DNA from: an uncultured Pseudomonadota bacterium
Lineage (GTDB): Bacteria > Myxococcota_A > UBA796 > SXON01
Direction: 5' to 3'
NCBI GenBank assembly: GCA_903844155.1
Contig: CAIMSU010000064.1
Span: 1-53,528, forward strand
Length of the DNA: 53,528 nucleotides
Shown: positions 9,619 to 43,070 of the stretch, piece after piece
How positions within the stretch are numbered: the first letter of the stretch is position 1
Layout of the letters: each line of letters begins with the position of its first letter
Position numbers and translations under genes: made by a program
Notes under the pieces: model-generated
What the model saw: the letters and a program-made list of their open reading frames with translations, nothing else
The model's database searches: none
What the model was told of the DNA's origin: nothing

Positions 9619-11610
9619 ATGGCGCCGCTCTCGAACCTCGCTGATCAGGTGCGCGCCTGGCGCGCCGCCGCCCCAGGGTTCGTGGAGCGTCAGGCGAAGA
9701 ACTTGGGACACCTCCGGTACGGCTGGGGGCACGAAAAGCAAGTTTCGTTCGTCTTCGGTTGCCAGCGCTCGGGCACCAAGATGCTGATGCGCATCCTCGA
9801 CGAGAGCCCGGCGGTCCGGATCTACCACGAGAACCACGCGACCGCGTTTCACGATTTCCAGCTTCGTTCGGACCGAACGGTGCGGCTGCTGGCGCGGACC
9901 AGCCCGGCGCCGAGCCCGATCTTCAAGCCCATCTGCGACAGCCAGCGGGCCGATCAGATCCTCGCCAGCTTTCCGGAGGCGCACGGGCTGTGGACCTACC
10001 GGCACTACGACGACGTGGCGAATTCGGCGTGCCAGAAATGGGGCGCGCACCAACGGGAGATCGTGTCGGACGTGATCGCCGGCGACGCCGCGAAGTGGGG
10101 CTGGCGGACCGAGCGCCTGCCGGAAGACGTCGTCGCGGCGATCCGCCGGGTCGCCCGGCCGGACCTCTCGGACTTCGAGGGCGCGCTGCTGTTCTGGTAC
10201 ATGCGCAACGCCTTCTTCTTCGCGCTGGGCCTCGACGCGCACCCGCGCATGCTGCTCACCCGCTACGAGGATCTCGTCACCGAGCCAGAAGCGGCGTTTG
10301 AGCGGGTGTACCGCCACGTTGGCGCACCGCTCGACCACCGGTTCCTGGGGCGGGTGCACAGCGAGGGGGTTCGTCGACGAGAGCCACCTCCAGCGAGCCC
10401 CGAGATCCGGGCGTTGTGTGCCGATCTGCTCGCCCGGCTGGACGCGTGCAACGATCGTGCGAGGGCCACGGAGCACGGGCGCACCCCCGTCGCCGAGCCG
10501 GCGCTCGTCTCCCCGGTGCTCATCCTCATCAACACGCTCGGGGTCGGCGGCGCGGAACGCTATGTCGTGACGGTGGCGAACTGGCTGGCGGCGCGCGGGG
10601 TGAAGGTGGTGGTCGCCTCGGAGGCCGGCTCGCTGGTCCCGGATCTCGCCGCCAACGTCACCTTTGTCGACGCGCCCCTCTACCGGGTCCGCGCGGATCT
10701 CCTCAGCGTCGCCGATACGGTCGGCGCCCTCATCGACGCGCACCAGCCCGCCGCCATCGTCGCGAATTCGCTCGCGGTCACGTGGGTTGCGCGCGCGGCC
10801 CTGCTCCGTCGCCCGGCGATCCCCATCATCGCCATCGGCCACGGCTGGCCCGACGACCGGTACCGCCTCGTCGGACCGCTGATGCGCGCTGCGGACACCG
10901 TCGTTGCCGTTTCGCCAGAGGTCCGGGCCAAGCTCGTCGCTGGCGGCCTCGCCCCGGCGCGGTGCGTCGTGATCTACAACGGCGTCGACTGTCGCGGGCT
11001 CGGCGTTCGCCCAGGGCCTGTGCGTGCGGCCACGCGGGCGGCGCTCGGCGTCGGTCCGGACGACGTCCTCGTGATCACGCTCGGGCGCCTGACCCCCCAG
11101 AAGGCCCACCAGCACGTGATCACCATCGCCGAGCAGCTCAAGGCCGGCCACCCCAACCTCAAGTACGCGATCGTCGGCGAGGGCGGGCGGGCTGAGGAGC
11201 TTGCTGGGCTCGTCGCAAGCCACGGCGTCGGCGACTGCGTGCTGTTGCCCGGCGTGCGCTCGGACGTCGGCGATCTGCTCGGCTCCGCCGACATCTACCT
11301 CTCGTGCTCGGACTGGGAGGGCATGCCGCTCTCGACGATCGAGGCGATGGCGTCGGAATTGCCGACGGTGGCGACGCGAACGGAGGGCTCCGGCCAGCTC
11401 CTCACCGATGCGTGCGGGATCGTCGTGCCCGTCGGCGACGCGGCGGCGATGGCAGCGGCGATCGCGAGGTTGGCGGCCGATGCGCCGCTGCGAGTGCTTA
11501 TGGGACAGGCGGCTCGGGAGCGCGCGTTGGCGTCGTTCAGCCACGATCGCATGGTCGGGGAGCTGGCGACGGTGATGGCGGGCGTGGTCGACAGCCTCGG
11601 CAACACCTAG
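9619..11610 (+). CDS. Sulfotransferase-glycosyltransferase (GT4) fusion protein
   Basis: The 663-residue protein joins two enzymes. Residues ~40-260 are a PAPS-dependent sulfotransferase. The 5'-phosphosulfate loop is FGCQRSGTKMLMRIL (45-60), and LLTRYEDLVTEPEAAFERVY further on resembles the region after the 3'-phosphate site. Residues ~297-655 are a GT4 glycosyltransferase starting LILINTLGVGGAERYV, with VVIYNGVD, TLGRLTPQKAH and the E-x7-E motif in WEGMPLSTIEAM. One chain could add a sugar and sulfate the same glycan. The divergent polysaccharide operon is the obvious partner. The start is the ATG at 9619; the frame is open far upstream but loses protein character there. Its stop shares CTAG with the convergent GH2 gene. 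Confidence 0.87.
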   Translation: MAPLSNLADQVRAWRAAAPGFVERQAKNLGHLRYGWGHEKQVSFVFGCQRSGTKMLMRILDESPAVRIYHENHATAFHDFQLRSDRTVRLLARTSPAPSPIFKPICDSQRADQILASFPEAHGLWTYRHYDDVANSACQKWGAHQREIVSDVIAGDAAKWGWRTERLPEDVVAAIRRVARPDLSDFEGALLFWYMRNAFFFALGLDAHPRMLLTRYEDLVTEPEAAFERVYRHVGAPLDHRFLGRVHSEGVRRREPPPASPEIRALCADLLARLDACNDRARATEHGRTPVAEPALVSPVLILINTLGVGGAERYVVTVANWLAARGVKVVVASEAGSLVPDLAANVTFVDAPLYRVRADLLSVADTVGALIDAHQPAAIVANSLAVTWVARAALLRRPAIPIIAIGHGWPDDRYRLVGPLMRAADTVVAVSPEVRAKLVAGGLAPARCVVIYNGVDCRGLGVRPGPVRAATRAALGVGPDDVLVITLGRLTPQKAHQHVITIAEQLKAGHPNLKYAIVGEGGRAEELAGLVASHGVGDCVLLPGVRSDVGDLLGSADIYLSCSDWEGMPLSTIEAMASELPTVATRTEGSGQLLTDACGIVVPVGDAAAMAAAIARLAADAPLRVLMGQAARERALASFSHDRMVGELATVMAGVVDSLGNT

Positions 11611-13832
11611 CCGCGTACCGCCACGCCTCCCTGCAGGTTCAACGCCGTGATCCAGCCACGCAAGGGCTTGACCGGTAGCCCAGGGATCGGCCGCAGCGTG
11701 AGCGTCCGGGGCCGGTCGGGCGTGAGGTGGACGTAGTTGTCATCGGGCTCGTAGCCGGGGCAGACGACGGCGACGGACTGGAGGAACGCGGTGCCGCGCA
11801 AGGTCAGGGTGTGGCCGGTGGGCGAGGGCGACAGCTCCGCTGACAGGCAGGTCGCGGGGACCGTGGCGAGGCTGTGGGTGACGGGAAAAAGCGCGTCGCC
11901 GTGGATGAGCTCGTCGTGGACGCAAAGACGGGCGACGACGACGTCGTGGCGCGGCGGGCCGAACCGGTAGGCCCAGGCGAGGTCCGAAAAGCTCCCGATC
12001 ATCGCCTCGCCCGAGAGCGTGAGCGCGCTTCGCGGAGGGACGACGACCGCCTGTCGCCAGATCCGGGGCCCGTGTCCGGCGCCGCCGCCGCAAAGCTCAA
12101 GTTCGACCGTGCCCTCGAGCGGCCCCGTGCCGTCGTTGATCACGTGGATGTCGACGCCGTTGAGCCCTTCGTCCGTCAGCAGGACAGCGCGCGGTGCCCA
12201 GGCGCGCTTGAGGTACCAGTAGCAGGGTTTTGGCCGGTTCTCGCTGTCGAGTACGCCCCAGCCAGCGCCCGGTCGGAGGTCCTTCCAGAACCAGACCAGC
12301 GCACCGCCGCAGCCGCTCCCTGGGCGCCGCCACTCGGCGTAGGTGCGGAGCATCAATTCACCGGTTACGATGCGGGAGATCGCGTGGTAGCGCTCCAGGT
12401 CCGAATAGCGCAGGGCGACGGGGTCGAGCCCGAACAGGACGCGCAGGTAGTGGTCGCGGACATCCTCGAAGTCCCAGCCAGCGCCATTGTCGCGGGGAAC
12501 CCCGGCTTTCCACGCGGGAAGGTGGGTGGCTGGGCTTGCGCTCCCGAAATGGCGCTCGACGTGGTCGGGCTCGGGGACGTTGGAGAAGCCAAGGCACTCC
12601 GGCGTGAATGCGACGTTTGCGGCGCGCGCGTCTGCGAGGGGGCGCTGGTAGGCGCCGACGCCGTAGTAGTGCGTGAACCCGGTGGAGGTGTGGAAGGGCA
12701 GCGCGCCGCCGGTCGGCGTGTTCGGGACGTACACGGCGCCGGGGTGATGCTCGGCGATCAACGCCGGGAGCGTGTCAGTGTAGAACGCGGAGGCCCAACC
12801 CACATCGCCCGGCAGGCGTGGCTGACCCATCATCGCCGCCTGCTGCTCGACCTCGCTGCCGCCGCAGTAGACCACCACGCACCGGTGACGACGAAGTCGG
12901 GCGATCTGCCCCGCGATCTCGGCGGTGACGTCGCTGCGGAACTCCGCGTCGTCGAACGGGTAGTCCATGTTGGCGAACATCAGGTCCTGCCAGACGAGGA
13001 TGTCGAATTCATCGCACGCGTCCAGCAATTCCTCGCTCGCCCACGTCATCGTGCCGCCAACGCGCAGCATGTTCAGGCCGGCGTCGCGTGCGAGACGCAT
13101 GCTCTCGCGCGTCACGCCGGGCGGCGGGTCGTCGAACGTGCACACGTCGGCGACCGTCCAGCAGGCCCCGCGCGCGAAGATCCGCTGGCCATCGACGTGA
13201 AACGCTGGTCTGGCGGCGTCCGGCATGGCCACCGCCCGCGTCACACCCCCGGAGTGCACAGAAACGCCCTCTGCGATTTCGAGCATCGCCGGCGATGCCG
13301 GGGTCCTTACCGACACCCCGCGCCACGGCCCGACGGCCGGGATCGGCGGCGTCCAACCCGGAATCCGGCCGACCAGCGAGGTGCGGAGCCAGCGCAGGTT
13401 CTGGTTGGCGACGAGCGCGGTCCGCCAGCGGGGACGCGGCTTTTTCGTCGCCAGGGCCGCTGTCACCGACCGGAAGCAGAGCACCAGCGCTCCGCCGCCG
13501 TCGACAGCCACCTCGTGGATCCGGTGCATGTTGCGGGACTGAAGGATCAACTGCCCGTTCAGCCACACGTCGGCGATCGTCGCCAGCCCGTCGAACCGCA
13601 GCGTCGACCTCCCCTCAGCCGCGAGATTACCCCGGTACCACCAGTCCATCGCGTCGATATCGACGCCCGCCGCCTCCGCGGTGAGCCCCAGCGCCTGCGC
13701 CACCGTCCCCGGCACCATCGCCGGTCGCCACCCGTCCGCAGGAAGGTCGCCCGGGCTACGGACCGCGCCCGCCGCCGTCCCCAGCAGCGTCCAGCCCTCG
13801 CTGATCCGCACCGTTGCTACGTCCGTGGGCAT
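11607..13832 (-). CDS. Glycoside hydrolase family 2-like protein (beta-mannosidase-like)
   Basis: This protein of about 741 residues has GH2 architecture. An N-terminal jelly-roll sugar-binding domain includes RFDGLATIADVWLNGQLIL (about 78-97). An Ig-like sandwich precedes a TIM barrel beginning near residue 200. NMLRVGGTMTWASEELLDACDEF is the usual GH2 strand; the acid/base Glu is probably in CGGSEVEQQ and the nucleophile in FTPECLGF. There is no signal peptide, so a cytoplasmic role is likely. It is translationally coupled to the DUF1839 gene (ATG at 13832 or GTG at 13835, TGATG overlap). I recall this association with amino acid:[carrier protein] ligases from other bacteria. The real substrate may be a glycosylated product of the pathway. 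Confidence 0.85.
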   Translation of the reverse strand: MPTDVATVRISEGWTLLGTAAGAVRSPGDLPADGWRPAMVPGTVAQALGLTAEAAGVDIDAMDWWYRGNLAAEGRSTLRFDGLATIADVWLNGQLILQSRNMHRIHEVAVDGGGALVLCFRSVTAALATKKPRPRWRTALVANQNLRWLRTSLVGRIPGWTPPIPAVGPWRGVSVRTPASPAMLEIAEGVSVHSGGVTRAVAMPDAARPAFHVDGQRIFARGACWTVADVCTFDDPPPGVTRESMRLARDAGLNMLRVGGTMTWASEELLDACDEFDILVWQDLMFANMDYPFDDAEFRSDVTAEIAGQIARLRRHRCVVVYCGGSEVEQQAAMMGQPRLPGDVGWASAFYTDTLPALIAEHHPGAVYVPNTPTGGALPFHTSTGFTHYYGVGAYQRPLADARAANVAFTPECLGFSNVPEPDHVERHFGSASPATHLPAWKAGVPRDNGAGWDFEDVRDHYLRVLFGLDPVALRYSDLERYHAISRIVTGELMLRTYAEWRRPGSGCGGALVWFWKDLRPGAGWGVLDSENRPKPCYWYLKRAWAPRAVLLTDEGLNGVDIHVINDGTGPLEGTVELELCGGGAGHGPRIWRQAVVVPPRSALTLSGEAMIGSFSDLAWAYRFGPPRHDVVVARLCVHDELIHGDALFPVTHSLATVPATCLSAELSPSPTGHTLTLRGTAFLQSVAVVCPGYEPDDNYVHLTPDRPRTLTLRPIPGLPVKPLRGWITALNLQGGVAVRG

Positions 13833-14842
13833 CACCCGAACCGGGCGACGAGGTCGCCCATCGCGTCGTCCCAGAGGCCCGCCATGGTTCGCAGGGCCGT
13901 GACGTCGAGGCCGCGCCGCCGGACCATCGCCCGGGCGAGCTGGAATTGGAGCTGCTTGGTCGCGCTGGAGATCGCGCCGAACGCCGAGGATGCCCGTTCC
14001 GGCACGTCGACGCCCGACTCCCGCAGCCAGCCGAGGTACGTGTCGGCGAGCTCAAAGCACGCGCCGTACTGCCGCAGCGTCGCGAACGAGTAGGCGTGGA
14101 AGACGGCGATGTCGCTGGCGAGGAGCGCGGGCAGGTCCGCTTGAAAGCGGGCGTCAAAGGCCACGAACGGGTTGGCGACGGGGACGCGGGCGAGGTGGTG
14201 GCGCAGGAGGGCCAGCGAGCCGTCGACGAGGGTGGGGCCGCGCAGCGCGGACTGGCGAGGGACGGGCTTCACGAACTCGATGTAGGGCGGCAACATCCGA
14301 GGATGAACGAGACCAGTCGTCTGGTAGACGTCGACGAAGTCCTCGCCGGCGAGGGCGTGGTAGCCCTGGTTGTGGAAGTACTCCATGGTGCCGTGGACGC
14401 CGTCGGCGTCAAGGTCGATCGCGTTGACGGCCACGGTCGACTTCACGTGCGCCGTTCGGTAGGCGGTGCCGACGGTGTCGGGCAGAAAGCAGGAATCGAG
14501 CTCCACAAGCACCGGGCGGCCGGCGGCGACCTGCTCCTGCACATGCGTCGCCAGGCCGCGCCAGGGCGCCAGCTCGTGGATCCCCAGCGCGTACAGCCGC
14601 TCCACGTCCGCGTGAGGAAACTTGAAGAACGTCCATTGATCCACGTCAAGGTCGATCGTCAGCGTGAACGGCAGCGCGGCCATCGGCTCAAAGCCCATGC
14701 CGTGTAGAAGCTCGATGACAACGTCGGTGTAGCAGTTCGTCTCGGCCCAGATCCGCTCAGGCGCGGCCTCACCGACTCGGGCGCCGCCGTGGATCCGATG
14801 CCGGACGTAGGTCGCGGGGTCGAGATCGAGGATGCGGGCCAC
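13832..14842 (-). CDS. DUF1839 family protein
   Basis: This 336-residue soluble protein looks like DUF1839, a family known mainly from gene clusters with amino acid:[carrier protein] ligases. Recognisable stretches are ILDLDPATYVRHRIH near the start, ETNCYTDVVIELLHGMG (about 34-50), the acidic TIDLDVDQWTFFKFP (about 62-76) and VLVELDSCFLPDTVGTAYR (about 110-128). ETNCYTD and ELDSCFLPDT each hold a conserved-looking Cys that could take part in acyl transfer, but this is a guess. The biochemical role is unknown; moving the aminoacyl group from the carrier to an acceptor is a reasonable hypothesis. The start is GTG at 14842, overlapping the ligase TAG by one base. Confidence 0.8.
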   Translation of the reverse strand: MARILDLDPATYVRHRIHGGARVGEAAPERIWAETNCYTDVVIELLHGMGFEPMAALPFTLTIDLDVDQWTFFKFPHADVERLYALGIHELAPWRGLATHVQEQVAAGRPVLVELDSCFLPDTVGTAYRTAHVKSTVAVNAIDLDADGVHGTMEYFHNQGYHALAGEDFVDVYQTTGLVHPRMLPPYIEFVKPVPRQSALRGPTLVDGSLALLRHHLARVPVANPFVAFDARFQADLPALLASDIAVFHAYSFATLRQYGACFELADTYLGWLRESGVDVPERASSAFGAISSATKQLQFQLARAMVRRRGLDVTALRTMAGLWDDAMGDLVARFG

Positions 14843-15807
14843 TAATCCTCGTCGGAGCGGTCGAGGCGGAGGAGCGCGCGGACCTCGGCCGGCCAGTCGG
14901 CGATCGCGAGGCCGTGGTGGCGGAAGAGCGCGAGGGTGATGCGCTCCAGCCCGAAGCCGATGCAGGCGGTGTGCGCATCGTGGCCGTCCGGCGTGTGGAT
15001 GCCGAAGGCGTGGCCGAAGTAGTCGAGGTGCAGGTTCGAGGAGCTGACGGCCGTGGGGTTCTCGGTCGAGCAGATCGGCACCACCAGCTCATACTTGAGC
15101 ACCTGCTCGCGCTGCGTGGCCTTGGCGAGCCGACCGCCGCGGCCAAAGAACGGGTCGTTCGCGACGACCGCCTCGACCGGCAGCAGGCAGGCCTCCAACA
15201 TGCGTTTTCCGCGTGCCAGCCAGGCGTCGCGGTGGGCGAGGGCCTCGTCAGCCGTGCCGAGGCGGACAAGCTCGCGCTGGCGAAAGATCTGCATGCGCGC
15301 GGGATCGTCGGAGGGCTCGTGGCGAAACACGAAGGTCTTCAGGTCGACGACGCGCCCGTGCGTGGGCAGCGTCCCCGTCGCGGTCGGGTAGAGCGGGTAG
15401 CAGGCCGCGGGCACCAGCATCACATCGCTGGCGGACAGGTCGCGCGACCAGTCCTCGCCCTTGCTGAACTTGCGCGTGAGCTCGCGATGCTCGGCGTCCT
15501 TCCCCATGAACGCGTGCACCGAGCCCATCAGATCGGGGAAGTTGTGGATGTGGTTGAGCTTTGAGTAGTCCGCGCGCGTCATCAACGGCGGGAACCGCAT
15601 GACCTCCGCTGGCGGCCCGCCTGCCGCGGCCCTCGCCTCGCGGCCGATGTAGCGCTCAAAATGGTCGACCACCCGTTCAAATTCCCCGCCGCGACCGTAC
15701 AGTCCCCGCACGCCCGAGGGGATGAGCAGCCCGGCCCGGGTCAGCTCGCCCAGGAACTCGGTGTAGGCGTTGGCGCTCGGGACTTCGTCCGCTTCAGTCA
15801 GGCACAT
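14842..15807 (-). CDS. Amino acid--[acyl-carrier-protein] ligase (atypical SerRS homologue)
   Basis: This 321-residue protein is a stand-alone class II aminoacyl-tRNA-synthetase core of the atypical seryl-tRNA synthetase type, without a tRNA-binding domain. These enzymes activate a small amino acid such as glycine or alanine with ATP and load it on the phosphopantetheine of a carrier protein. Motif 2 is KTFVFRHEPSDDPARMQIFR (about 157-176) and motif 3 is GFGLERITLALFRHHG (about 284-299). The zinc triad is present as Cys136, Glu179 and Cys282. Its presumed carrier is the small protein at 19222-19470. It starts 4 bp after the acyl-CoA dehydrogenase stop, and its stop overlaps the DUF1839 start. 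The residues deciding Gly versus Ala cannot be assigned here. Confidence 0.92.
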   Translation of the reverse strand: MCLTEADEVPSANAYTEFLGELTRAGLLIPSGVRGLYGRGGEFERVVDHFERYIGREARAAAGGPPAEVMRFPPLMTRADYSKLNHIHNFPDLMGSVHAFMGKDAEHRELTRKFSKGEDWSRDLSASDVMLVPAACYPLYPTATGTLPTHGRVVDLKTFVFRHEPSDDPARMQIFRQRELVRLGTADEALAHRDAWLARGKRMLEACLLPVEAVVANDPFFGRGGRLAKATQREQVLKYELVVPICSTENPTAVSSSNLHLDYFGHAFGIHTPDGHDAHTACIGFGLERITLALFRHHGLAIADWPAEVRALLRLDRSDED

Positions 15808-15811
15808 CCGC

Positions 15812-17056
15812 TCACCCCTTCCGCTGCATGACCTGCATCATGGCGCTCTGCCCGAGGATGCGGTCGTTGTTCACCATGAGCGCGGCCCCGTACGCGTCGC
15901 GCAGGTGGCGACACAGCGAGTGCGGCGAGTCGTTGCGGTAGCCGGAGATGCCGCAGATCACCATGGCTTTTCCGACGATGTCGACCAGGAGCTGCGATGC
16001 GGTCACCTTCAGGTTGTTGACCCGCAGGCCGAACGCGAAGTTGGAAGCGAACACCACGCCCGCGTCCGGCCCGGAGGCGTCGAGCACCAGCAGATCCTCG
16101 TACTCCCGCATCGTCTGCCGGACGGTGGCCCGGAACGTCGCGAGGATGGCGTCCACCTCCGCGAGCCGCAGGGCGCTCGGCGGGAGCGTGCCCGGGGTTT
16201 TTCTGGCCTCGGCCCTCACAAAGTTCCGGGCTTTCTGAACGGCGTCGCTCGCGATCCCGAGCCAGAGCGAGGCCCAGACACCATGCGAGAACGCGTGCAT
16301 CGTTTTTGCGTGGATCTCGGCGTACGGGGCGGGCAGGATCTGCGCGACGCTCCCGGTGGCCCGCAGCGCAAAGCCGGAGCTGCACGTCCCGCGAAAACCA
16401 AGGGTGTCCCAGCCGGAGAGCGGGGTGAGTGTGACGGCGTCGCCGGAGGCTGCGCCGGGCGTCTTGCGGACGAAGACGTGAACCTGCTCGGAGGCGCCGG
16501 CATCCGGAGCGCGGCGCGCGGTGACGAGGATCGCGTCTGCCGCGACGCCGTAGGAGATGACGGGGGCCTGCTTTTCGAGGGTGAACGTCTCCCCGTCGGC
16601 CGAGCGCTGGACCGCGCAGATGCTGGACCGGACGTCTCCTCCGACGCCAAGCTCCGTCGTCGCCGAAGCGAGGAGGAGCTGCTTTTCGACGATCTCGCGA
16701 ACCACCGCCTCGAAGTAGGCAGATCCGCCGCCGCCTGTGCCCGGCAGCGCGTGGTGGACGATGCAGCCGACCTGGATCTGGTGCATCGCGAACACCATCG
16801 CCGTCGACCCACAGTAGGTCCCAAGCGCCTCGCAGACCTCCGAAAGTTGGGTGATCGTGAGGCCCATTCCGCCGTAAGCCGCTGGGATGTAGGAGCTCAG
16901 CAACTTCGCCGATTTCAGGGCGGCAAAAGCCTCATCCGGGAATCGCGCGTCGCGGTCGACCGCGGCGGCGTTCGGCGCCACCACCTCCCGGCCAATCGCA
17001 TGGACCTGGGCGAGCAACGCCGCGAACGGGGATGCGGCGACGGACGTGGGGTGCAT
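15812..17056 (-). CDS. Acyl-CoA dehydrogenase family protein, probably acting on a carrier-bound substrate
   Basis: The 414-residue protein follows the acyl-CoA dehydrogenase fold. There is a helical N domain (AAYGGMGLTITQLSEV at about 59-74, an FAD-domain signature) and a beta domain with SATTELGVGGDV and GWDTLGFRGTCSSGF. A C-terminal helical bundle ends in GISGYRNDSPHSLCRHLRDA. The last segment, which in many family members carries the catalytic Glu of the GYxxE type, has Asn/Asp here, so the base may be elsewhere or the reaction may differ. Next to an amino acid:[carrier protein] ligase, it may desaturate or oxidise an aminoacyl-S-carrier. It begins after a hairpin that may separate it from the upstream lipoprotein gene. 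Confidence 0.85.
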   Translation of the reverse strand: MHPTSVAASPFAALLAQVHAIGREVVAPNAAAVDRDARFPDEAFAALKSAKLLSSYIPAAYGGMGLTITQLSEVCEALGTYCGSTAMVFAMHQIQVGCIVHHALPGTGGGGSAYFEAVVREIVEKQLLLASATTELGVGGDVRSSICAVQRSADGETFTLEKQAPVISYGVAADAILVTARRAPDAGASEQVHVFVRKTPGAASGDAVTLTPLSGWDTLGFRGTCSSGFALRATGSVAQILPAPYAEIHAKTMHAFSHGVWASLWLGIASDAVQKARNFVRAEARKTPGTLPPSALRLAEVDAILATFRATVRQTMREYEDLLVLDASGPDAGVVFASNFAFGLRVNNLKVTASQLLVDIVGKAMVICGISGYRNDSPHSLCRHLRDAYGAALMVNNDRILGQSAMMQVMQRKG

Positions 17057-17123: not shown

Positions 17124-19178
17124 TCAGGTTCCGTCGCCGAGGATCAGATAGGCCGCGCCCTCCTCGTCGTACTCGCCCGACGCGCCGGGAGCGCCGATGA
17201 GGAGGTCCGCGTAGCCGTCGTCGTTGACGTCGCCAGCACCCGCGACGCTGCTGCCGGCCACATCCGCGCTGTGGGTGTCGCTCTCGCCGTAGAAGCAGCG
17301 GTGGGCGGACGCGAGGTCCTCGGACGCTGGGGCCGGGCTGCCGACGACAACGTAGGCCTTGCCCGCGTTGGACCCGTCGGCCGCCCTGTTCCCCACGAGC
17401 AGGTCGTCGAACCCGTCCCCGTCCACATCGCCCGCCCCGGCCACCGTGCACCCGGGCTGCAGGCACCCACTGCCGGTGTATTGCGCGGACGCCAGGCTCA
17501 ACCCGGACGACGTCGGCGTTGGACCGCCGAGGACGAGGAAGGCCTGTGGCCCCGGGCCGTCGTAGTAGGAGCCGGAACCGGAGATGACGAGGTCCGCATG
17601 ACCGTCCCCGTCCACGTCGCCCGCGCCCGCCACCGCTCCAGCGGTCTGGGCGACGCCCGTACCGTCGTAGACCGCATCGGCCGCGCTCAAGGCGGACGAG
17701 GCGGAGAGCACCCGGCCAAGCTCCAGATACGCGGCACCAGCGTTTCGGCTCCCATCGGTCCCGTTGGCGTAGGGAGCGCCGATCAGCACGTCATCGAGCC
17801 CATCGCCGTCGACATCGCCCACGCCCGCCACGCTCCGGGGCTGATTGTCGAGGTCGACTGCTCCCCACCAGCTCCGGCTCGCCAGCGTGAGCGACTCGCT
17901 TTGCGGCTCGCCCGATCCGGGCACGACATAGACCGCGCCAGTCCCTCCGGCCCTCGCTGCGACGATGGCGACGTCATCGAGCCCATCGCCATCGACGTCG
18001 CCCGCGCCGTCGACCGCGTACCCGGCCCAGTCGTCCGCCGTCTCGCCGGTCCAGGCCACGTGGTCACGAACGGACCCGGATTCCGGGCTGGCACTTCCCA
18101 GCACGAGCCAGCCGGCGCTTGACCCGTATGCGCCGATGATCACGTCGTCCAGCCCATCCCCATCGACGTCGCCCGCGGCAGAGACCGACAGCTCCGAGGT
18201 CCCGTATGCATCGGAGGCGCTGCCGTCGGCCCTGTACACCACCTCGTCTTCCAGGGCGGCGGACCTCGGCCTCGCCGACCCTAGCACGAGGTAGGCGTAG
18301 GAGGAATCCCCGGCCGTCGAGCACGCGTCGTCGGAGATGCAGGCTTCGGTGAGCACGTCGTCGTAGCCGTCCCCGTTGACGTCGCCCGCGGCCGACACGA
18401 CCGCCCCGGCGTAGTCGAACGTGTCGGGACCGGTGTACTCGATCTGGCCGGCGAGGGGGCAGTGACTGCCGTCGACGCCGTCGCAGTCCTGATCGATCCC
18501 GTCGGGGCAGTCGTCGGCAGCCGGGTGGATGGTGGGGTCGATGTCGTCGCAGTCCCCGTCGACGGGCGCGCCGGGCCCGCTGGCGCAGTCCAGGCTCGAT
18601 CCGGTGATGACGGTGTCGGTCCCGTAGTTGTCGCCGTCCTCGTCGACATAGCAGGCGTCGACGCCGTCGCAGTCCTGGTCGACGCCGTCGCCGGCCACTT
18701 CGGCGGCGCCAGGATGGATCGTCGGGTCGACGTCGTCACAATCGTCCCCGCCAAGCGCGACGGTGTCGTAGCCGTCGCCGTCGTGGTCCCAGTTGTTCTG
18801 CACCCACACCTCGACCACGTCGGAGTCGGTGTTTCCTGCCGCGTCAGTCGCGGTTGCGGTGAGCGAATGCGGCCCCTCGATGACCTGGCGCGTGTCCCAG
18901 GATGTCGACCACGGAGCCGCGAGATCGTCGGTCGACGCGACCCCGGCCGCCGCGCTGCCAGGGCCGTCAAGGCCGTCGACGGAGAAGCTGACGGTGACCA
19001 CGCCGACATCGTCGGTCGCGACCGCGCCGACTGGCACGACCCCGTACACCGTCGCCGCACCGGGAGTGGTCACTGTGACCGTCGGACGCCGATAGTCCAG
19101 CTCCAGGGCTGTGTCCCGCGATTCCGGAGCCGTCGGCCCCGCGCAGCCGGCGAGCAGCAGGAGCAGCGAGGTCGTCAT
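17124..19178 (-). CDS. FG-GAP repeat lipoprotein with MopE-like metal-binding repeats
   Basis: The 684-residue protein starts MTTSLLLLLAGC, a lipoprotein signal with the lipobox Cys at residue 12; the start at 19178 is chosen for this. Order of parts: an Ig-like domain (about 35-110), two Asp/Cys-rich repeats (DHDGDGYDT, DCDDVDPTIHPGA, DGVDQDCDGVDACYVDEDGD, about 115-200), then six to seven FG-GAP blades (AAGDVNGDGYDDVL and similar) to the C-terminus. FG-GAP blades fold as an integrin-like propeller, with Ca2+ bound at DxDxDG loops. It should sit on the cell surface or outer membrane. Such proteins are plentiful in Myxococcota. It interrupts the carrier-protein cluster between the carrier gene and the dehydrogenase and is flanked by hairpins, so it may not belong to the pathway. 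Confidence 0.85.
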   Translation of the reverse strand: MTTSLLLLLAGCAGPTAPESRDTALELDYRRPTVTVTTPGAATVYGVVPVGAVATDDVGVVTVSFSVDGLDGPGSAAAGVASTDDLAAPWSTSWDTRQVIEGPHSLTATATDAAGNTDSDVVEVWVQNNWDHDGDGYDTVALGGDDCDDVDPTIHPGAAEVAGDGVDQDCDGVDACYVDEDGDNYGTDTVITGSSLDCASGPGAPVDGDCDDIDPTIHPAADDCPDGIDQDCDGVDGSHCPLAGQIEYTGPDTFDYAGAVVSAAGDVNGDGYDDVLTEACISDDACSTAGDSSYAYLVLGSARPRSAALEDEVVYRADGSASDAYGTSELSVSAAGDVDGDGLDDVIIGAYGSSAGWLVLGSASPESGSVRDHVAWTGETADDWAGYAVDGAGDVDGDGLDDVAIVAARAGGTGAVYVVPGSGEPQSESLTLASRSWWGAVDLDNQPRSVAGVGDVDGDGLDDVLIGAPYANGTDGSRNAGAAYLELGRVLSASSALSAADAVYDGTGVAQTAGAVAGAGDVDGDGHADLVISGSGSYYDGPGPQAFLVLGGPTPTSSGLSLASAQYTGSGCLQPGCTVAGAGDVDGDGFDDLLVGNRAADGSNAGKAYVVVGSPAPASEDLASAHRCFYGESDTHSADVAGSSVAGAGDVNDDGYADLLIGAPGASGEYDEEGAAYLILGDGT

Positions 19179-19221: not shown

Positions 19222-19470
19222 TCACCCCCCCTGCAATTCCTCCACCGCGTCCGCCATCGCCTGGATGCTCTGGAAGGTCTTCCGCCCGAGCATCCGGTCG
19301 GGAAACTCAACCTCAAACTGGTCTTCCAGGGCGACCATCAGGTGTACCGTCGTCATCGACGAGAGCCCGAGGGTGTAGAGGTCCGCGGTGGGGGTGAGCG
19401 CCGCGGCGTCGGCGGCGATGCGAGCGTGCTTGAGCACGATGTCGCGGATGAGCGCGATGCGGTCTGACAT
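19222..19470 (-). CDS. Acyl carrier protein-like small carrier protein
   Basis: This 82-residue four-helix carrier protein has the phosphopantetheine site at Ser38 in LYTLGLSSMTTVHLM. The usual Asp-Ser-Leu is Ser-Ser-Met here. The third-helix segment VALEDQFEVEFPDRML is standard for the family. The atypical DSL motif and the neighbours point to a dedicated carrier that takes an amino acid from the ligase at 14842-15807 instead of a fatty-acid ACP. It starts 9 bp after the double hydrolase stop. A 4'-phosphopantetheinyl transferase is not encoded in the window and must act from elsewhere. Confidence 0.9.
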   Translation of the reverse strand: MSDRIALIRDIVLKHARIAADAAALTPTADLYTLGLSSMTTVHLMVALEDQFEVEFPDRMLGRKTFQSIQAMADAVEELQGG

Positions 19471-19479
19471 CCGCGCAGT

Positions 19480-21261
19480 CTAACGTGCTCCCGGGTTCAT
19501 CCCGGTCACGAGCGAGACGACGTGCCCGTGCGCCCAGATCGGTCGGATCGTGTGGTCGACGCCGGGGAGGATCGTGAGCTTTGGCCGGGTCTTCAGCGTC
19601 GTGTGGGCCTGCAGGTAGGCGATGCTCGGGTCGCCGTCGGAGGAGACGAGGTGGAGGTGGGTGCCGCGGCCGGTCACGGTCCGGATCAGCTCGGCGACGT
19701 CGTCGGGCGGGGGATGGCCACGCAGTCGGGCGAGAGTGGCGGACCCGCGGACGCGGCCCTTCAGGGCAAGGGAGCGCGCGAGCTCGACGGCGTCGATCCG
19801 TCCCGTGAGCAGCCGTCGCCACCGCCTTCCGTCAAAAAGGGAGCGTCCGACCTCGCTCGTCATGTCCGACGCGCGGGCTTCGTCGTTCCACACGAAGGCG
19901 AGGCCGTTGAACAAGAGGGCGCTGCGGACGGCGCGGCGCGAAGCCACCTGCATGCCGAGGAACGCGCCGGAGCACAGGCCGACAACGTCGACGTTGCCAG
20001 CGTTCTGGGCGTGGACCCAGTCCCAGGCGAGCAGCGCATCGCCGATGGAGGCCTCGCTGTACATGCCGTCGAGATCGCGGTGGGCGACGTCGGAGCCGTC
20101 GCTGTCGCCAACGTCGCGCACATCGAACCGGAGCGACGGCGAACCCTGTGCAGCGAGGGCGCGTGCAGCGGTCGTCCAGAGGCGGTTGGGCCCGGAACGC
20201 CGCATGCCGCCCGCGTTGTAGAAGGTCGTCCAGGCGGCGCCGGGTCGAGCCCCGCCCGCCGGCTCGCACACGATGCCCGACAGCTCCCCGACCTCGCCCC
20301 GCGCCACCCACGGGTGCTCGGTGACGCCGTTGGGGAGGGCGAGGCGGAGCTCAGCCGTAGGTCCCGGGTGAATCCGCGGATGCTCGCCCGGGACCCGGCC
20401 CGCAGCGAACCAGTCGAGGATGGCGCCACGGACGGCATCGTTGAGCGCGGCCTTGTAGGGGCGTTCGAGGAGGTCGCCGAGGCCCGCAGCGGGGCCGACC
20501 GTCACCCGTGCGCCGGCGGTGCCGAGGGCGTCCAACAGCGCGGGAGCGGGGACCGCGTCGTCGCGCTCGATGAGGAGGACGCGCTCCAGGCCGGACCGCG
20601 CCGAGGCGAGTGACGTCCCATCCAGCGCCTCCAACGCCGCGATCGTCGGCGCGCGGTACACGAAACCGGCCGCCTCGACCGTCCCCGGCTCGGGCCCGGG
20701 GCCCGCATAGGGCTTCCCGGCCACCGGCGCCGACATGCGCTCGAACACGCGCTCCTCGCGCAAGAACGCCCTCCCGTTGGTGGGCATGGCCCAGAGCACG
20801 AGCTGGTCGAACCCCGGGGCCGCGAGCGCGAGGAGTGCTCCCACCCGTACGCCAACCCCGGCCACCCGCGTGTGCCCACGCGCTCGCAAGGCGCCACATG
20901 CCGCCTGGATCGCCGCGAACCAGCGTTCGCCCAGATCCGGCGAGGCGTCGTCGCCGACGCTGTCGCCAAGGCCCGGCCATTCAAGCTGCAGCACCACGAA
21001 CCCTTCGGCGGCAAGCGCATCCGCGAGCACGCGCAACGGGCGGTGCGCGCACGTGTCCTCGTAGCCCATGGGCGGCAGCAGGACGACCGCGGTGTCCGCA
21101 CACACCCCGTCGCCCGGCCGGTGCTCGACCGTGAACGCCCCGGCCACGTAGTACCGGAGGCGCTCGACCGGGCGGCGGGGCTGGGGTGCGGCGGGCGGCA
21201 TGCCGGGCGTCGTATCCGGAACGCGTCGCCGGGGCGCCAGCGCCGGCGAAACCCGTGACAA
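19480..21261 (-). CDS. Tandem alpha/beta-hydrolase protein with Cys nucleophile in domain 2
   Basis: The protein (593 residues from TTG at 21261, 573 from ATG at 21201) holds two alpha/beta-hydrolase folds. In domain 1 (about 35-275) the nucleophile elbow reads GVGVRVGALL, with Arg where Ser should be, so it is probably inactive. Domain 2 (about 310-590) has the elbow VGLCSGAFLG with Cys as nucleophile, as in dienelactone hydrolases and PHA synthases. Plausible partners are the Asp in HLVSSDGDPS and the His in PGVDHTI. Acting next to a carrier protein, it could release or transfer the carrier-bound product as a thioesterase or acyltransferase. It follows the PbgA-like gene directly (its stop at 21262, start at 21261) and lies 9 bp before the carrier gene. 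Confidence 0.82.
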   Translation of the reverse strand: MSRVSPALAPRRRVPDTTPGMPPAAPQPRRPVERLRYYVAGAFTVEHRPGDGVCADTAVVLLPPMGYEDTCAHRPLRVLADALAAEGFVVLQLEWPGLGDSVGDDASPDLGERWFAAIQAACGALRARGHTRVAGVGVRVGALLALAAPGFDQLVLWAMPTNGRAFLREERVFERMSAPVAGKPYAGPGPEPGTVEAAGFVYRAPTIAALEALDGTSLASARSGLERVLLIERDDAVPAPALLDALGTAGARVTVGPAAGLGDLLERPYKAALNDAVRGAILDWFAAGRVPGEHPRIHPGPTAELRLALPNGVTEHPWVARGEVGELSGIVCEPAGGARPGAAWTTFYNAGGMRRSGPNRLWTTAARALAAQGSPSLRFDVRDVGDSDGSDVAHRDLDGMYSEASIGDALLAWDWVHAQNAGNVDVVGLCSGAFLGMQVASRRAVRSALLFNGLAFVWNDEARASDMTSEVGRSLFDGRRWRRLLTGRIDAVELARSLALKGRVRGSATLARLRGHPPPDDVAELIRTVTGRGTHLHLVSSDGDPSIAYLQAHTTLKTRPKLTILPGVDHTIRPIWAHGHVVSLVTGMNPGAR

Positions 21262-23151
21262 TCACTGATAGAACGCCTCCATCTCCGCCACGCCCGCGGC
21301 AAACCCCTCGCGGTCGTCGATGCCGGTCTTCGGGCTCAGGTCGCGGTCGGTGATGTGCACGGACCCCGCCATCGACGACACGATCTCGGATCGGGTGACG
21401 ATGCCGTAGCCAACGTAACCGGCGACGACCCGGTCTTTTCGGACGGCGTCGTCGAAGAGATCGAGGCCGCTGGTGTAGTCGCGGAGCGGGTTCTCGCAGC
21501 CGAGCGCGTCACGCAGCAGCGTCCCGGCAACGTCGAGATGCGTGGTGACGTGGTCCACGGTGCCGGCCGCTTTGCCGGGCCAGTGCACGACGAGCGGAAC
21601 GTGGGTTTGCACCTCGCCAAAGTCCAGACCATGCCCCCAGTCATCGGCGCGGCGCTCGTTGAAGGACTCGCCGTGGTCGCCGGTCAGGACCACGATGGTG
21701 TCGTCCAGGCGCCCCGACGACGCAAGATCGGCGAGCAGGCGTCCGATCTGCTCGTCCACAAAGCCGGCGGCGTTGAGGTACTGGTTTTTGTACGGTGTCG
21801 GGTCGGTGTCGGCGGAGAAGGCGGTGATCTCGGCGGGCGCGGTCGGCAGGAAGCGGGGGACGTAGGCCGACGGGAAGGAATAGCGGTGATGGGTGGAGTC
21901 GAAGAAGACAAGGCCGAAGGCGGGGGTAGCGGCGTCCGCGGCGAGGAAGTCGCGGAGGTGGTCGACGTTGGCGACGTCGCTGTCGTTCGGTCGGCCGTCG
22001 TTCTCGGCGAGGTCGACGCGGTCGCGGGCGAGCGCGCCGAAGAAGTACCGGTCGAACCGTAGACGTTGCAGGGTGTCGCGGCTGGAGAAGGCGCCGAAGC
22101 GGTAGCCGAGGTGGTCGAGGGCCTGGACGAGGGCGGGACCGCCGGCGCCGTCGGCGTTCGCGATGCTGTCCCAGTAGGTGGCGTCGATGCCGTAAAGCAG
22201 GCCGCCGAGGCCCGGTTGCGTCGAGTTCCCGCTGCTGTAGTGCTCCGTGAAGTTCAGGTTCTCGGCGGCGAAGGCGGTTGTCGCCGGCATGACGTCGGCG
22301 CGCATCGCATCGGCGCGCAGGCTCTCGACGACGATGAGCAGGATGTCCGGTCGGGTGGTGCCGTCCGGAAGCGGCGCGCCCGGACAACGCAAGGGTGAAC
22401 GCGGGTAGTGCAGGCCGGCGCTGGTCGGAAGCGTCAGTTCGGGGACGACGGCGTCGTCAGCCGGCGCCCACCCGTGCGCGCGCAGGAAGGTGTTGGCGGT
22501 CAAGCCGTGGAAGCCGGGCAGGAGCTCGTCCTCGCCGGTCAGGTCCCGTCGGCCAACCGCGGACGCCCACGCGTGCAAGCCGTTTGTGACGAGGACGACA
22601 CCGAGGAGGGCGATGGCGACGGCCCAACCGGCGCGTCGAAGCCGCTGCCGTCGCTCGATCCTTTCCGCGAGCCGCAGGAGTCCGACCTCCGCGCCCGCCA
22701 GTGCGATGAGGCACGCAGCGATCGTCGCGCAGGAGCGCGCCGAAAGGTCAAAAAAGCCCTCGCCACCTCCATTTCCGAGCATCACCAGGAAGAAGGGGTC
22801 GATGTGGAAGTGGTAGATCGCGTAGACGATGGTGTCTGCGACGAGGAGGGTGAGACCTGCGGGAAGCAGGACGACCGCGGCTTGGATCCAGGATCGACGC
22901 GGAACAATCAGGAGAAGGGCAAGGATCGGCAGCCCCGCGACGGCGGCGAGCACGGTCCACTCGGTCGTCGCCGAGAGGGCGAGGAACGCGGCGTCGAGGG
23001 CGTTCGGGGGCTTGGCGGTGCCCCAGTACCGGGTCGAGATCGCGAGCGCCAACAGCACGTTCAACGCCAGCATCCAGAGCCAGGTCCGCACGAGCACGGC
23101 CCGCGTTGGTGCACCGAGCGGGCGCGGAGCGGGGGTTTTGAGCGGCGACAC
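21262..23151 (-). CDS. PbgA/YejM-like membrane-anchored sulfatase-fold protein
   Basis: The 629-residue protein has five hydrophobic helices in the first ~215 residues, then a large periplasmic domain of the alkaline phosphatase/sulfatase fold, the layout of PbgA (YejM, DUF3413) and LTA-synthase-like proteins. The active-site region starts DILLIVVESLRADAM. The Thr position in SSGNSTQPGLGGLLYGI resembles the nucleophile loop of LTA synthases. Metal-type residues occur in FDSTHH, LTGDHGESF and DDWGHG. Enterobacterial YejM regulates LPS synthesis and has lost catalysis. Here the His/Asp set looks more complete, so phosphoglycerol or phosphoethanolamine transfer is possible. It starts 9 bp after the small sigma-partner gene. 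Confidence 0.85.
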   Translation of the reverse strand: MSPLKTPAPRPLGAPTRAVLVRTWLWMLALNVLLALAISTRYWGTAKPPNALDAAFLALSATTEWTVLAAVAGLPILALLLIVPRRSWIQAAVVLLPAGLTLLVADTIVYAIYHFHIDPFFLVMLGNGGGEGFFDLSARSCATIAACLIALAGAEVGLLRLAERIERRQRLRRAGWAVAIALLGVVLVTNGLHAWASAVGRRDLTGEDELLPGFHGLTANTFLRAHGWAPADDAVVPELTLPTSAGLHYPRSPLRCPGAPLPDGTTRPDILLIVVESLRADAMRADVMPATTAFAAENLNFTEHYSSGNSTQPGLGGLLYGIDATYWDSIANADGAGGPALVQALDHLGYRFGAFSSRDTLQRLRFDRYFFGALARDRVDLAENDGRPNDSDVANVDHLRDFLAADAATPAFGLVFFDSTHHRYSFPSAYVPRFLPTAPAEITAFSADTDPTPYKNQYLNAAGFVDEQIGRLLADLASSGRLDDTIVVLTGDHGESFNERRADDWGHGLDFGEVQTHVPLVVHWPGKAAGTVDHVTTHLDVAGTLLRDALGCENPLRDYTSGLDLFDDAVRKDRVVAGYVGYGIVTRSEIVSSMAGSVHITDRDLSPKTGIDDREGFAAGVAEMEAFYQ

Positions 23152-40619: not shown

Positions 40620-43070
40620 TCATGCGCGACGCCGACGCAGGAGGCCAAACGCCGCGAAGACCCCGACCCAGCCGTCAACCGGCGCGTCCGTCGCACACCC
40701 GCCACACGCCTTTTTCGGCAGGCCGTCCTTGCCGTCGCAGTTGGCGTCGAGGCCGTCGCGGGGGATGTCGTGGGCGCCGGGGTGCACCGAGGCGTTGGCG
40801 TCGTCGCAGTCGCCGGGGACGGTGGTGTAGCCGTCGCCGACGAAGCAGACGATGGCGGTGTCCGTGCTGCCGTAGCCGTCCCCATCGGTGTCCACGTAGG
40901 CGGTGATGCCGTCGGTCATGGCGGGATCGGCGGCGTCGACGAGGCCGTTGCAGTCGTCGTCCAGGCCGTTGCAGACCTCGATGGCTGCGGGGTTCATGGC
41001 GGGGTTTGTGTCGTTGCAGTCGCCGGGATTCGCGGCGTAGCCGGTGCCGACGGGGCAGTCGGTGTGCATGCTGCCCTCCGCGCCGTACCCGTCGCCGTCC
41101 GCGTCGACGTAGGAGACGTCCCCTTCGTCGACCGCCCCGTCGCAGTCGTTGTCTCGGTTGTCGCAGACATCTTCGGCAGCCGGGTTGATCGCGGCGTTGT
41201 AGTCGTCACAGTCGCCGGGTAGGGGCGCACGCGTGCTGTCCACCGGGCAGGCGGTGCCGGCCGCGCCATACCCATCGCCATCCCAGTCGACATACGAGAC
41301 GCTGCCTTCGTCGATGCTGCCGTCGCAGTCGTTGTCGAGGCCGTCGCAGAGTTCGACGCCGCCGGGGTTGGTGCTTGCGTCGGTGTCGTCGCAGTCGGCT
41401 TCGGTGCTGGTGGTCATGTGGTCGCACCGCCACACGTTCAGGGTGGATCCCGCGTAGCCGTCCGCGTCGTCGTCCGGGAAGCCCCCGGTGGCCGCGCCGA
41501 CGTCCGGGTCGACATCGTCGCAGTCGCTGTCGGCGGGGATGCCGTCCCCGTCGGCATCCGTGGGGTCCGGGACGTAGCCCGCGTACACGGCGACGAGGTC
41601 GTACCGCGTGCCGTCCGGCTTTTCGCAGAGCGCCAGGTCGGCGTAGCCATCGCCGTTGAGGTCGCCAACCCCGGCGGACAGGTGCCTCACGGTGCTTTCC
41701 GGGGGGAAGACCACGCTCGGCGTGGAGACCAGCCCGGTCGCGCTCCCCTCGTAGACCGCAGGAGTCACGGTGCTGCCGTCGGTGGCCGCAGACGACTCCA
41801 GGACCACGTCCGCGTAGCCGTCTCCGTCCGTGTCGCCAAGCATTCCGAGTCCCTCGCCGAGGTGGGTGCCGGGTGCGCCACTCAGGGGGTCAGATGGGGC
41901 ATCCGCGAGCCCGAGCGCCCCGCCGGCGTACGTGTAGACCCGCCCCTCCCCCGAGGACGATCCCGGTGCGCCGACCACTACGTCGTCGTAGCCGTCCCCG
42001 TCGATGTCCCCACCCGCGGCACTCGCCGCGCCGAAGCGGTCGGCGGCGTTGGCGCCGGTCAGCTCGTTTGCCGGCGAAGATGAAACGTTTCCGGCGGACC
42101 CCAGGTAGATGTAGACGGTGCCATCCCCATCGCCGTAGACCAGGTCATCGATGCCGTCACCATCAATGTCGCCGCCGGATGCCGCGTTCGCGCTACCCGC
42201 TGGCAGGGTCAGCACCGCCACCGATCCGAGCCCATCGCCGCTACCCTCATAGAGGTAGGCCTGAGTCCGGGATCCGAGGACCGCATCCGCGTAGCCATCG
42301 CCGTTCATGTCACCCACGGCGGCGATGGTGGTGCCGGAGCCGTCGCTCGCAGCCGTGATGACTGGCCGCGTGGCCACTGTGAGACCGGCGGGACCGCCAA
42401 GGTACGCCCGCCCGCACCAATCCCCGCCCGCCATATTCGCGACGACGAGATCGTCGTAGCCGTCGCCGTTCACGTCACCGACACCAGATGCGTAGCTCCA
42501 TTCGTAATCCGCCGTACACTCGCCCGTGGACGCGGGGATGGTCGTCTCCCCGGCTGCCCCGAACGGGGATCCGGTGACCACGACGGGCGGCACGGCGAAA
42601 CTGGACACGACCATGTCGTCGTACCCGTCCGCGTTGACGTCTCCGGCGGCGGCGGCCGCCCACCAGCCGTCGATCTCGACGGCCGGCGTCCCAAACACCG
42701 GATCCACCGTGATCGGGTAGCTCGCGCCTGCATCGTCGACCGCGAGGATCACCTCGCCCGGGCCCACCCGCATCGTCACCCCCAGCGCCCGCCCCCGCGC
42801 ATCCCACGCCCGCAACCCACCGACCGTCCAGCCGGTCGCGCCGTCGACCGCCAGCGCGATCGTCAACAGCCCCGTGCCCATCGGCCTCGTCGGCAGCGTC
42901 CACCCCTCCTCCATCCCGTCCGCCCGCCTGGCCCACCACTCGGTCACGCCCGCGGCGCTCACGTCTCCCCGCCCGACAAACGCCGTCCGCACACCCATCT
43001 TCGCGCCACCGGCGACGATCTCCACGCGCTCGCCGGGTGTGAGCAGGGTGGCGAGGTCCAGGAGCGGCAT
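40620..43070 (-). CDS. FG-GAP/MopE-like repeat protein with MYXO-CTERM-type tail
   Basis: The 816-residue protein has an unassigned N domain (about 1-125), seven FG-GAP blades (about 130-505; AAAGDVNADGYDDMV and similar), and four to five Asp/Cys metal-binding repeats (DADGDGIPADSDCDDVDPD, LDNDCDGSIDEG and so on, about 510-780). It ends with ACGGCATDAPVDGW, a short hydrophobic helix and RRRRA. That tail is a MYXO-CTERM sorting signal, in which a Cys is processed and anchored at the cell surface. Oddly, the chain starts MPLLDLATLLTPGERVEIV with no signal peptide. It lies 12 bp after the LPG-synthase-like gene, so the start cannot be moved far upstream without overlap. Confidence 0.85.
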   Translation of the reverse strand: MPLLDLATLLTPGERVEIVAGGAKMGVRTAFVGRGDVSAAGVTEWWARRADGMEEGWTLPTRPMGTGLLTIALAVDGATGWTVGGLRAWDARGRALGVTMRVGPGEVILAVDDAGASYPITVDPVFGTPAVEIDGWWAAAAAGDVNADGYDDMVVSSFAVPPVVVTGSPFGAAGETTIPASTGECTADYEWSYASGVGDVNGDGYDDLVVANMAGGDWCGRAYLGGPAGLTVATRPVITAASDGSGTTIAAVGDMNGDGYADAVLGSRTQAYLYEGSGDGLGSVAVLTLPAGSANAASGGDIDGDGIDDLVYGDGDGTVYIYLGSAGNVSSSPANELTGANAADRFGAASAAGGDIDGDGYDDVVVGAPGSSSGEGRVYTYAGGALGLADAPSDPLSGAPGTHLGEGLGMLGDTDGDGYADVVLESSAATDGSTVTPAVYEGSATGLVSTPSVVFPPESTVRHLSAGVGDLNGDGYADLALCEKPDGTRYDLVAVYAGYVPDPTDADGDGIPADSDCDDVDPDVGAATGGFPDDDADGYAGSTLNVWRCDHMTTSTEADCDDTDASTNPGGVELCDGLDNDCDGSIDEGSVSYVDWDGDGYGAAGTACPVDSTRAPLPGDCDDYNAAINPAAEDVCDNRDNDCDGAVDEGDVSYVDADGDGYGAEGSMHTDCPVGTGYAANPGDCNDTNPAMNPAAIEVCNGLDDDCNGLVDAADPAMTDGITAYVDTDGDGYGSTDTAIVCFVGDGYTTVPGDCDDANASVHPGAHDIPRDGLDANCDGKDGLPKKACGGCATDAPVDGWVGVFAAFGLLRRRRA

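Follow-up and report, generated by a model that had tools for sequence, protein, structure and literature searches.

A fused alpha/beta-hydrolase pair with Arg and Cys elbows is a regular member of the amino acid:[carrier protein] ligase module

The gene neighbourhood of the amino acid:[carrier protein] ligase was reportedly treated by Mocibob in 2010. As given in a note added in proof (PMC2922099), this neighbourhood comprises the ligase, a carrier protein, a dehydrogenase, a conserved uncharacterised ORF, a glycosidase, and surface-sugar genes. Transfer of an amino acid to a surface sugar was proposed there, with the conserved ORF beside the ligase put forward as the amide-forming enzyme. 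That note names no alpha/beta-hydrolase, whereas one is a regular member of the neighbourhood described here. The hydrolase in turn resembles two families associated with exosortase A, TIGR03101 (hydr2_PEP, exosortase A system-associated hydrolase 2) and TIGR03100 (hydr1_PEP, hydrolase 1). No biochemical data for any protein of either type were found in the open-licence papers searched, and the 2006 PEP-CTERM paper (PMC1569441) does not mention a hydrolase, acyl carrier, decarboxylase, ligase, or TIGR03100.

The window, meaning the whole 53,528-nucleotide stretch analysed (contig CAIMSU010000064.1, assembly GCA_903844155.1, from an uncultured Pseudomonadota bacterium), encodes a tandem alpha/beta-hydrolase (Table 1) whose first domain matches TIGR03101 (E 7.6e-22, 78.1 bits) and whose second matches TIGR03100 (E 1.9e-16, 60.2 bits). 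Both scores fall far below the curated cut-offs of 202.75 and 168.45 bits, respectively, and Pfam returned weak alpha/beta-hydrolase matches only. The protein is a cis-fused "hydrolase 2 + hydrolase 1" pair, here in a surface-polysaccharide locus. A preliminary description of this DNA had reported the ORF together with a GVRVG elbow in domain 1 and a GLCSG elbow in domain 2. All three were recovered, the motifs as residues 137-141 (R139) and 428-432 (C430), and both elbows are conserved in homologues. The true start probably lies downstream of the TTG, near residue 21-30, since about residue 30 is where several orthologues start. The gene that ends directly upstream of the hydrolase (window positions 21262-23151) encodes a YejM/PbgA-like membrane protein of the sulfatase fold (DUF3413 and Sulfatase). 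In the window's own genome, a stop divides a second hydrolase copy (G000, contig C58, 16533-18257; L032, 10518-12239) into an Arg half of 250 aa and a Cys half of 315 aa, and the other module genes are absent from the stretches of that contig that were read. This genome, which is about 96% complete, yielded no match to exosortase (PF09721), ruling out membership of an exosortase-A system there; a match was absent from 29 of the 38 genomes examined (the 37 with hydrolase matches and G079, described below).

Table 1. Features of the hydrolase gene and its operon, in window coordinates
Feature	Position	Strand	Basis or remark
Tandem alpha/beta-hydrolase	19480..21261	-	593-aa ORF, TTG first start at 21261, stop at 19480; TIGR03101-like then TIGR03100-like halves
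Domain 1, Arg-elbow, hydr2_PEP-like	20386..21174	-	residues about 30-292
Arg139 codon, domain 1 elbow	20845..20847	-	
Domain 2, Cys-elbow, hydr1_PEP-like	19501..20328	-	residues about 312-587
Cys430 codon, candidate nucleophile	19972..19974	-	aligned with Ser of GLSMG in 9pjb
Asp544 codon, candidate acid	19630..19632	-	unchanged across the 12 fused proteins; not invariant in the wider set
His570 codon, candidate base	19552..19554	-	invariant in fused and unfused
Carrier protein, PRK07081 type	19222..19470	-	NF005480, 98.4 bits, cut-off 72
Predicted secreted repeat protein, DHDGDGYD-type motifs, between carrier and dehydrogenase genes	17124..19178	-	
Acyl-CoA-dehydrogenase-fold flavoenzyme	15812..17056	-	ACAD models
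Amino acid:[carrier protein] ligase	14842..15807	-	NF005479, 414.6 bits, cut-off 357
DUF1839	13832..14842	-	PF08893, 1.2e-106; predicted papain-like cysteine enzyme
GH2/beta-mannosidase-like protein	11607..13835	-	GH2 model

The order hydrolase-carrier-dehydrogenase-ligase-DUF1839-GH2 is common to the window and two further loci, L009 and L010, and the six genes are rearranged elsewhere. The secreted repeat protein gene is absent between carrier and dehydrogenase in L009 and L010 and is not part of the module; a second protein, with MopE and FG-GAP matches, is encoded at window positions 40620-43070. L009 (CAMAWH010000017.1) comes from a record titled as a Klebsiella pneumoniae MAG; its hydrolase match is the same as that of G005, a genome of the window's own family, and the species label looks wrong. 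Within the operon, Ser38 of the carrier protein is by its position likely the phosphopantetheine site, and the ligase is related to Bll0957, for which structures have been solved (4h2w, 3mey). Many ACAD models match the dehydrogenase-fold protein weakly, L-prolyl-carrier-protein dehydrogenase among them (E 1.4e-6); it may act by dehydrogenation or by hydroxylation. Around the operon, the window carries a polysaccharide locus encoding a flippase, glycosyltransferases, an O-antigen-ligase-like protein, a chain-length/tyrosine kinase protein, and a priming transferase.

Beyond the window, the fused hydrolase is the sixth regular member of the ligase module, which consists of the carrier, acyl-CoA-dehydrogenase-fold enzyme, ligase, DUF1839, GH2 protein, and hydrolase. 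It was encountered in eight families of the phylum to which the window belongs, tentatively Myxococcota on gene content, and also on plasmids of Pseudomonadota. Among 377 genomes of the phylum, the ligase scores above cut-off in 21 and hydrolase alignment matches occur in 37, sorted from place tables into 22 with the fused form and 15 in which none was seen. Fused hydrolase and ligase occur together in 20 genomes, the ligase alone in one (G079), and the fused hydrolase alone in two (G051 and G362). The co-occurrence has a Fisher p of 6e-30 (377 genomes, kinship ignored), and each partner spans the same eight families. At 18 of the 21 cut-off-passing ligase places, the hydrolase lies on the same contig within 20 kb; for the remaining three, it is found on other contigs in two genomes and has no match in G079. 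Ligase-like places scoring below the cut-off had no hydrolase nearby (0/11). The exceptions bear on which partner the hydrolase accompanies. Since G079 lacks a match to DUF1839 as well as to the hydrolase, and G126 has DUF1839 and a first-type domain only (at a contig end) with no ligase match, the hydrolase seems to follow DUF1839. G362 and G051 (72% complete) run counter to this, as both carry fused hydrolases with no match to either the ligase or DUF1839. In G346 (C14, 14627-82208), at least three fused hydrolase genes lie in about 70 kb, only the first of them within about 12 kb of a ligase, at 27670.

Plasmid records give a comparable distribution: 59 contain DUF1839, 49 a hydrolase match (E 0.01 or better), and 33 both, in every case within 20 kb. 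No hydrolase was detected in 26 of the 59 DUF1839 records, many of them from Rhizobium, and of the 16 hydrolase records that lack DUF1839 several are short or weak matches. An annotated Azospirillum plasmid carries the six module genes in a row, with elbows GLRLG and GLCAG; those of Cupriavidus metallidurans CH34 read GLRLG and GVCSG, and Rhizobium sp. T136 has GRCSG as its second elbow, its first having escaped the pattern used. On a conjugative Rhizobium plasmid (NZ_CP071635.1; L117, 8962-9948), a lone DUF1839 gene sits beside a ParB-domain gene, with no annotated ligase or carrier in the stretch shown.

Alignment of 12 fused proteins, the other 11 being 28-61% identical to the window protein, revealed R139, G428, L429, C430, G432, D544, D569, and H570 to be invariant. 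When domain alignments were extended to unfused pairs, R139, C430, and H570 were still invariant, but D544 was not. In a wider non-redundant set (all loci collected at that point, near-copies removed, types split by reading the elbow table), the first-type elbow holds Arg in 42 of 45 cases, with Lys, Gly, and Leu once each, and Glu or Ser stands at the elbow of other hydrolases caught by the same two profiles. The preferences of the NCBI profiles, read by scoring fragments with the elbow letter changed, point the same way: TIGR03101 prefers Arg (62.5 bits) over Lys (60.5), Ser (59.3), Asp (59.0), and Cys (58.6), and TIGR03100 prefers Cys (47.1) over Ala (41.2), Ser (41.1), and Asp (40.2). With both elbows conserved in homologues and each preferred by its own profile, the Arg/Cys code is a property of the whole pair family. 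A search of IMG/VR for further relatives of the hydrolase or DUF1839 returned none.

Domain 1 lacks a catalytic triad in the sense of a nucleophilic elbow residue with a His, as Arg occupies the elbow and the 12 homologues share no invariant His or acid partner. The preliminary description had concluded that this domain must be dead or regulatory. The serine triad is indeed absent, but that wording is too strong: the Arg is conserved in the wider set and is the residue that TIGR03101 prefers, which argues for a maintained role. A decayed or chance Arg is ruled out by the same 42 of 45. Homologues with Ser in domain 2 and no carrier neighbour, which the same description had named as contrary evidence, did not arise, the second-type elbow being Cys in 46 of 46 and carrier genes adjoining most pairs, as they do the window's hydrolase.

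An AlphaFold model of the hydrolase built from a three-row alignment (mean pLDDT 64.7, pTM 0.73, cores good) sets each elbow where a strand turns into a helix. Both halves adopt the alpha/beta-hydrolase fold, with model residues 33-295 superposing on PET46 (8b4u; Z 20.2, 228 aligned, rmsd 3.2) and residues 314-588 on 7xrh_B (Z 18.4, 200 aligned, rmsd 3.0). D544 follows directly after strand 535-541 and H570 comes after strand 561-565, in a loop (residues 568-578) below pLDDT 50. Profile alignment with 9pic sets R139 on the Ser position of GFSLG, and that with 9pjb sets H570 on the His of GGDHTFS. By position, the Asp and His suggested earlier for the Cys are supported as candidate partners: C430, D544, and H570 occupy canonical positions in sequence and model, the His loop being of low confidence.

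The closest solved relatives of both halves are ordinary carboxylic-ester hydrolases. This kinship, along with glycan genes and a GH2 protein as neighbours, would suit an enzyme that trims an ester on a finished glycan or lipid-linked intermediate, the carrier neighbourhood reflecting shared envelope loci only. We consider such trimming improbable, given the strict Cys and the association of unfused pairs with NRPS/PKS genes. Cys-type alpha/beta-hydrolases that transfer acyl groups offer a different precedent; bile-acid-CoA:amino acid N-acyltransferase, PHA synthase, and Cys thioesterases each combine an elbow Cys with Asp and His. The window protein shares this arrangement but no family-level match. 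BAAT models (PF08840, BAAT_C) did not match it and gave a weak hit in one of 12 domain-2 homologues (E 0.016), and neither type II thioesterase (PF00975) nor any PHA-synthase family model matched at E up to 0.1. PHA-synthase chemistry, invoked in the preliminary description, is therefore unsupported at the family level. That domain 2 might still be a polymerising or chain-transferring enzyme of that kind is very improbable: the GxCxG elbow with its Asp and His is the only shared point, and no PHA-synthase match was obtained among the other window proteins scanned either.

Unfused pairs widen the context. Sixteen such loci were collected besides L089, and one neighbour protein was scanned for a carrier domain at each of 12 (all but L096, L097, L100, and L102). 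These pairs mostly adjoin NRPS/PKS genes, often beside glycan genes, and nine of the 12 scanned neighbours contain a carrier domain. At L090 and L091, an 86-aa upstream ORF was judged carrier-like by eye, with no Pfam match at 1e-5, and the L092 neighbour has an AMP-ligase only. Ten further neighbours, picked for a glycan-like look and set against no random regions, comprised four flippases, three glycosyltransferases, a weak polysaccharide deacetylase, a mannosyltransferase-like protein, and one protein with no match; the association with glycan genes is accordingly less secure than that with carriers. A midpoint-rooted tree of 49 second-type domains, whose bootstrap had not settled, gave the fused domains a supported group of their own (96/95), separate from those of the NRPS/PKS loci (99/96) and from four further domains (100/99). 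Five rows in the fused group bear an unfused label, owing to truncation, mislabelling, or a secondary split: L017 (the Gly elbow) and L116 each consist of one long ORF, L021 and L029 lie at contig ends, and L002 is the split C58 copy.

Most strongly, we infer carrier-bound thioesters as the substrate of the pair, a good guess in view of the carrier neighbours of both the fused module and the unfused NRPS/PKS pairs. Type II thioesterases edit mis-loaded or stalled groups for NRPS/PKS, and the window's hydrolase could be an editing or unloading enzyme of this sort, its Cys domain hydrolysing mis-primed, mis-loaded, or stalled (amino)acyl groups while the Arg domain docks the carrier and DUF1839 alone performs transfer. 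The carrier neighbourhood would be the same in that case, a separate transferase candidate is present in the operon, and the unfused pairs adjoin assembly lines without PF00975 in the scanned neighbours (0/12). Nevertheless, a Cys that is never replaced by Ser would be uncommon in an enzyme that merely hydrolyses, the protein matches no type II thioesterase family, and the glycan neighbours go unexplained; we regard editing as unlikely, though it is the likeliest of the rival readings. By analogy with the Cys-type acyltransferases, the strict Cys argues for an acyl-enzyme that would be passed to an acceptor.

Which protein performs the main transfer is a separate matter. Published work places DUF1839 in the papain-like fold, gives it a C(T/S)H triad, and suggests that it processes glycans at the cell wall (PMC10318531). 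C37 and H157 are invariant in eight DUF1839 sequences, and a sequence search for a solved structure returned none at E up to 1. For a weak, partly helical model (pLDDT 45.6), the top fold match is CcbD (Z 9.6, 147 aligned, rmsd 3.0), but unrelated bundles lie within 1 Z, and AziU3 and CtaG are also among the top fold rows; the modelled resemblance to CcbD is a lead only. The conserved ORF of PMC2922099 is apparently DUF1839, and we infer that Atu2574 belongs to DUF1839 as well. As the enzyme of the main transfer to the surface sugar in this operon, DUF1839 is a better candidate than the hydrolase. The earlier proposal that the hydrolase moves a thioester-bound group off the carrier accordingly survives in its choice of substrate but is unsupported or too strong in casting the hydrolase as the transferase, since DUF1839 stands in the operon.

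With DUF1839 already present as a transferase candidate, the explanation that we favour overall, though at slightly less than an even chance, is that the hydrolase makes a second transfer or achieves a productive release or unloading of the carrier. Following the published proposal, a small amino acid would be loaded on the carrier protein by the ligase and then modified by the dehydrogenase-fold enzyme. DUF1839 would join the first group to an amino sugar through an amide bond, leaving the second transfer or the unloading to the hydrolase. In domain 2, Cys430 would accept the (amino)acyl group from the carrier, His570 serving as the base and Asp544 as the acid, and the acyl-enzyme would be resolved onto a surface-glycan acceptor, water being a minor or editing outcome. 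Domain 1 would form no acyl-enzyme; instead, Arg139 at the base of its pocket may bind an anionic group, either the phosphopantetheine phosphate or a carboxylate or phosphate of the acceptor, and the halves would act as one heterodimer-like unit. Of all this, the anatomy, the conservation, membership of the module, and the carrier and glycan neighbourhoods are observed; the substrate, the transfer to a glycan, the part played by the Arg, and the sharing of work with DUF1839 belong to the proposal. Counted against this explanation are DUF1839 itself as a transferase candidate, the variability of D544 outside the fused clade, the genomes G079 and G362, and the 26 of 59 plasmid DUF1839 records noted above.

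A broader reading, tentative and on balance unlikely, would make Arg/Cys pairs general carrier-protein-to-surface-glycan acyltransferases: the acyl-enzyme would form on the Cys half, while the Arg half would be a hydrolase repurposed for binding the carrier or the acceptor, the same machine operating in exosortase-A loci, in NRPS/PKS loci, and, fused, in the aminoacyl-carrier module. Independent of that reading, two families defined only by their association with exosortase A, with no described function found in the open-licence papers searched, gain a common partner in the carrier protein, and their residue code, Arg in one half and Cys in the other, is testable by single mutations. A sixth regular member is added to a module whose presumed task is the attachment of amino acids to sugars of the cell surface, and the module's presence on plasmids of culturable bacteria (Azospirillum, Cupriavidus) renders the question testable beyond uncultured organisms.

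Compared with known systems, the module is known in outline; the open-licence papers searched describe neither the hydrolase as its regular fused member, nor the kinship with the exosortase-A hydrolases, nor the Arg/Cys code. The window's domains each match one of TIGR03101 and TIGR03100 and share their preferred elbow residues, but are fused into one protein. For the operon as a whole, the works-like analogue is provided by the lincosamide condensing enzymes CcbD and LmbD, in which a Cys enzyme converts an aminoacyl-carrier protein and an amino sugar to an amide, CcbD joining carrier-bound proline to an amino sugar (PMC12945683). These enzymes are cysteine-protease-like, and are thus to be compared with DUF1839 and not with the hydrolase.
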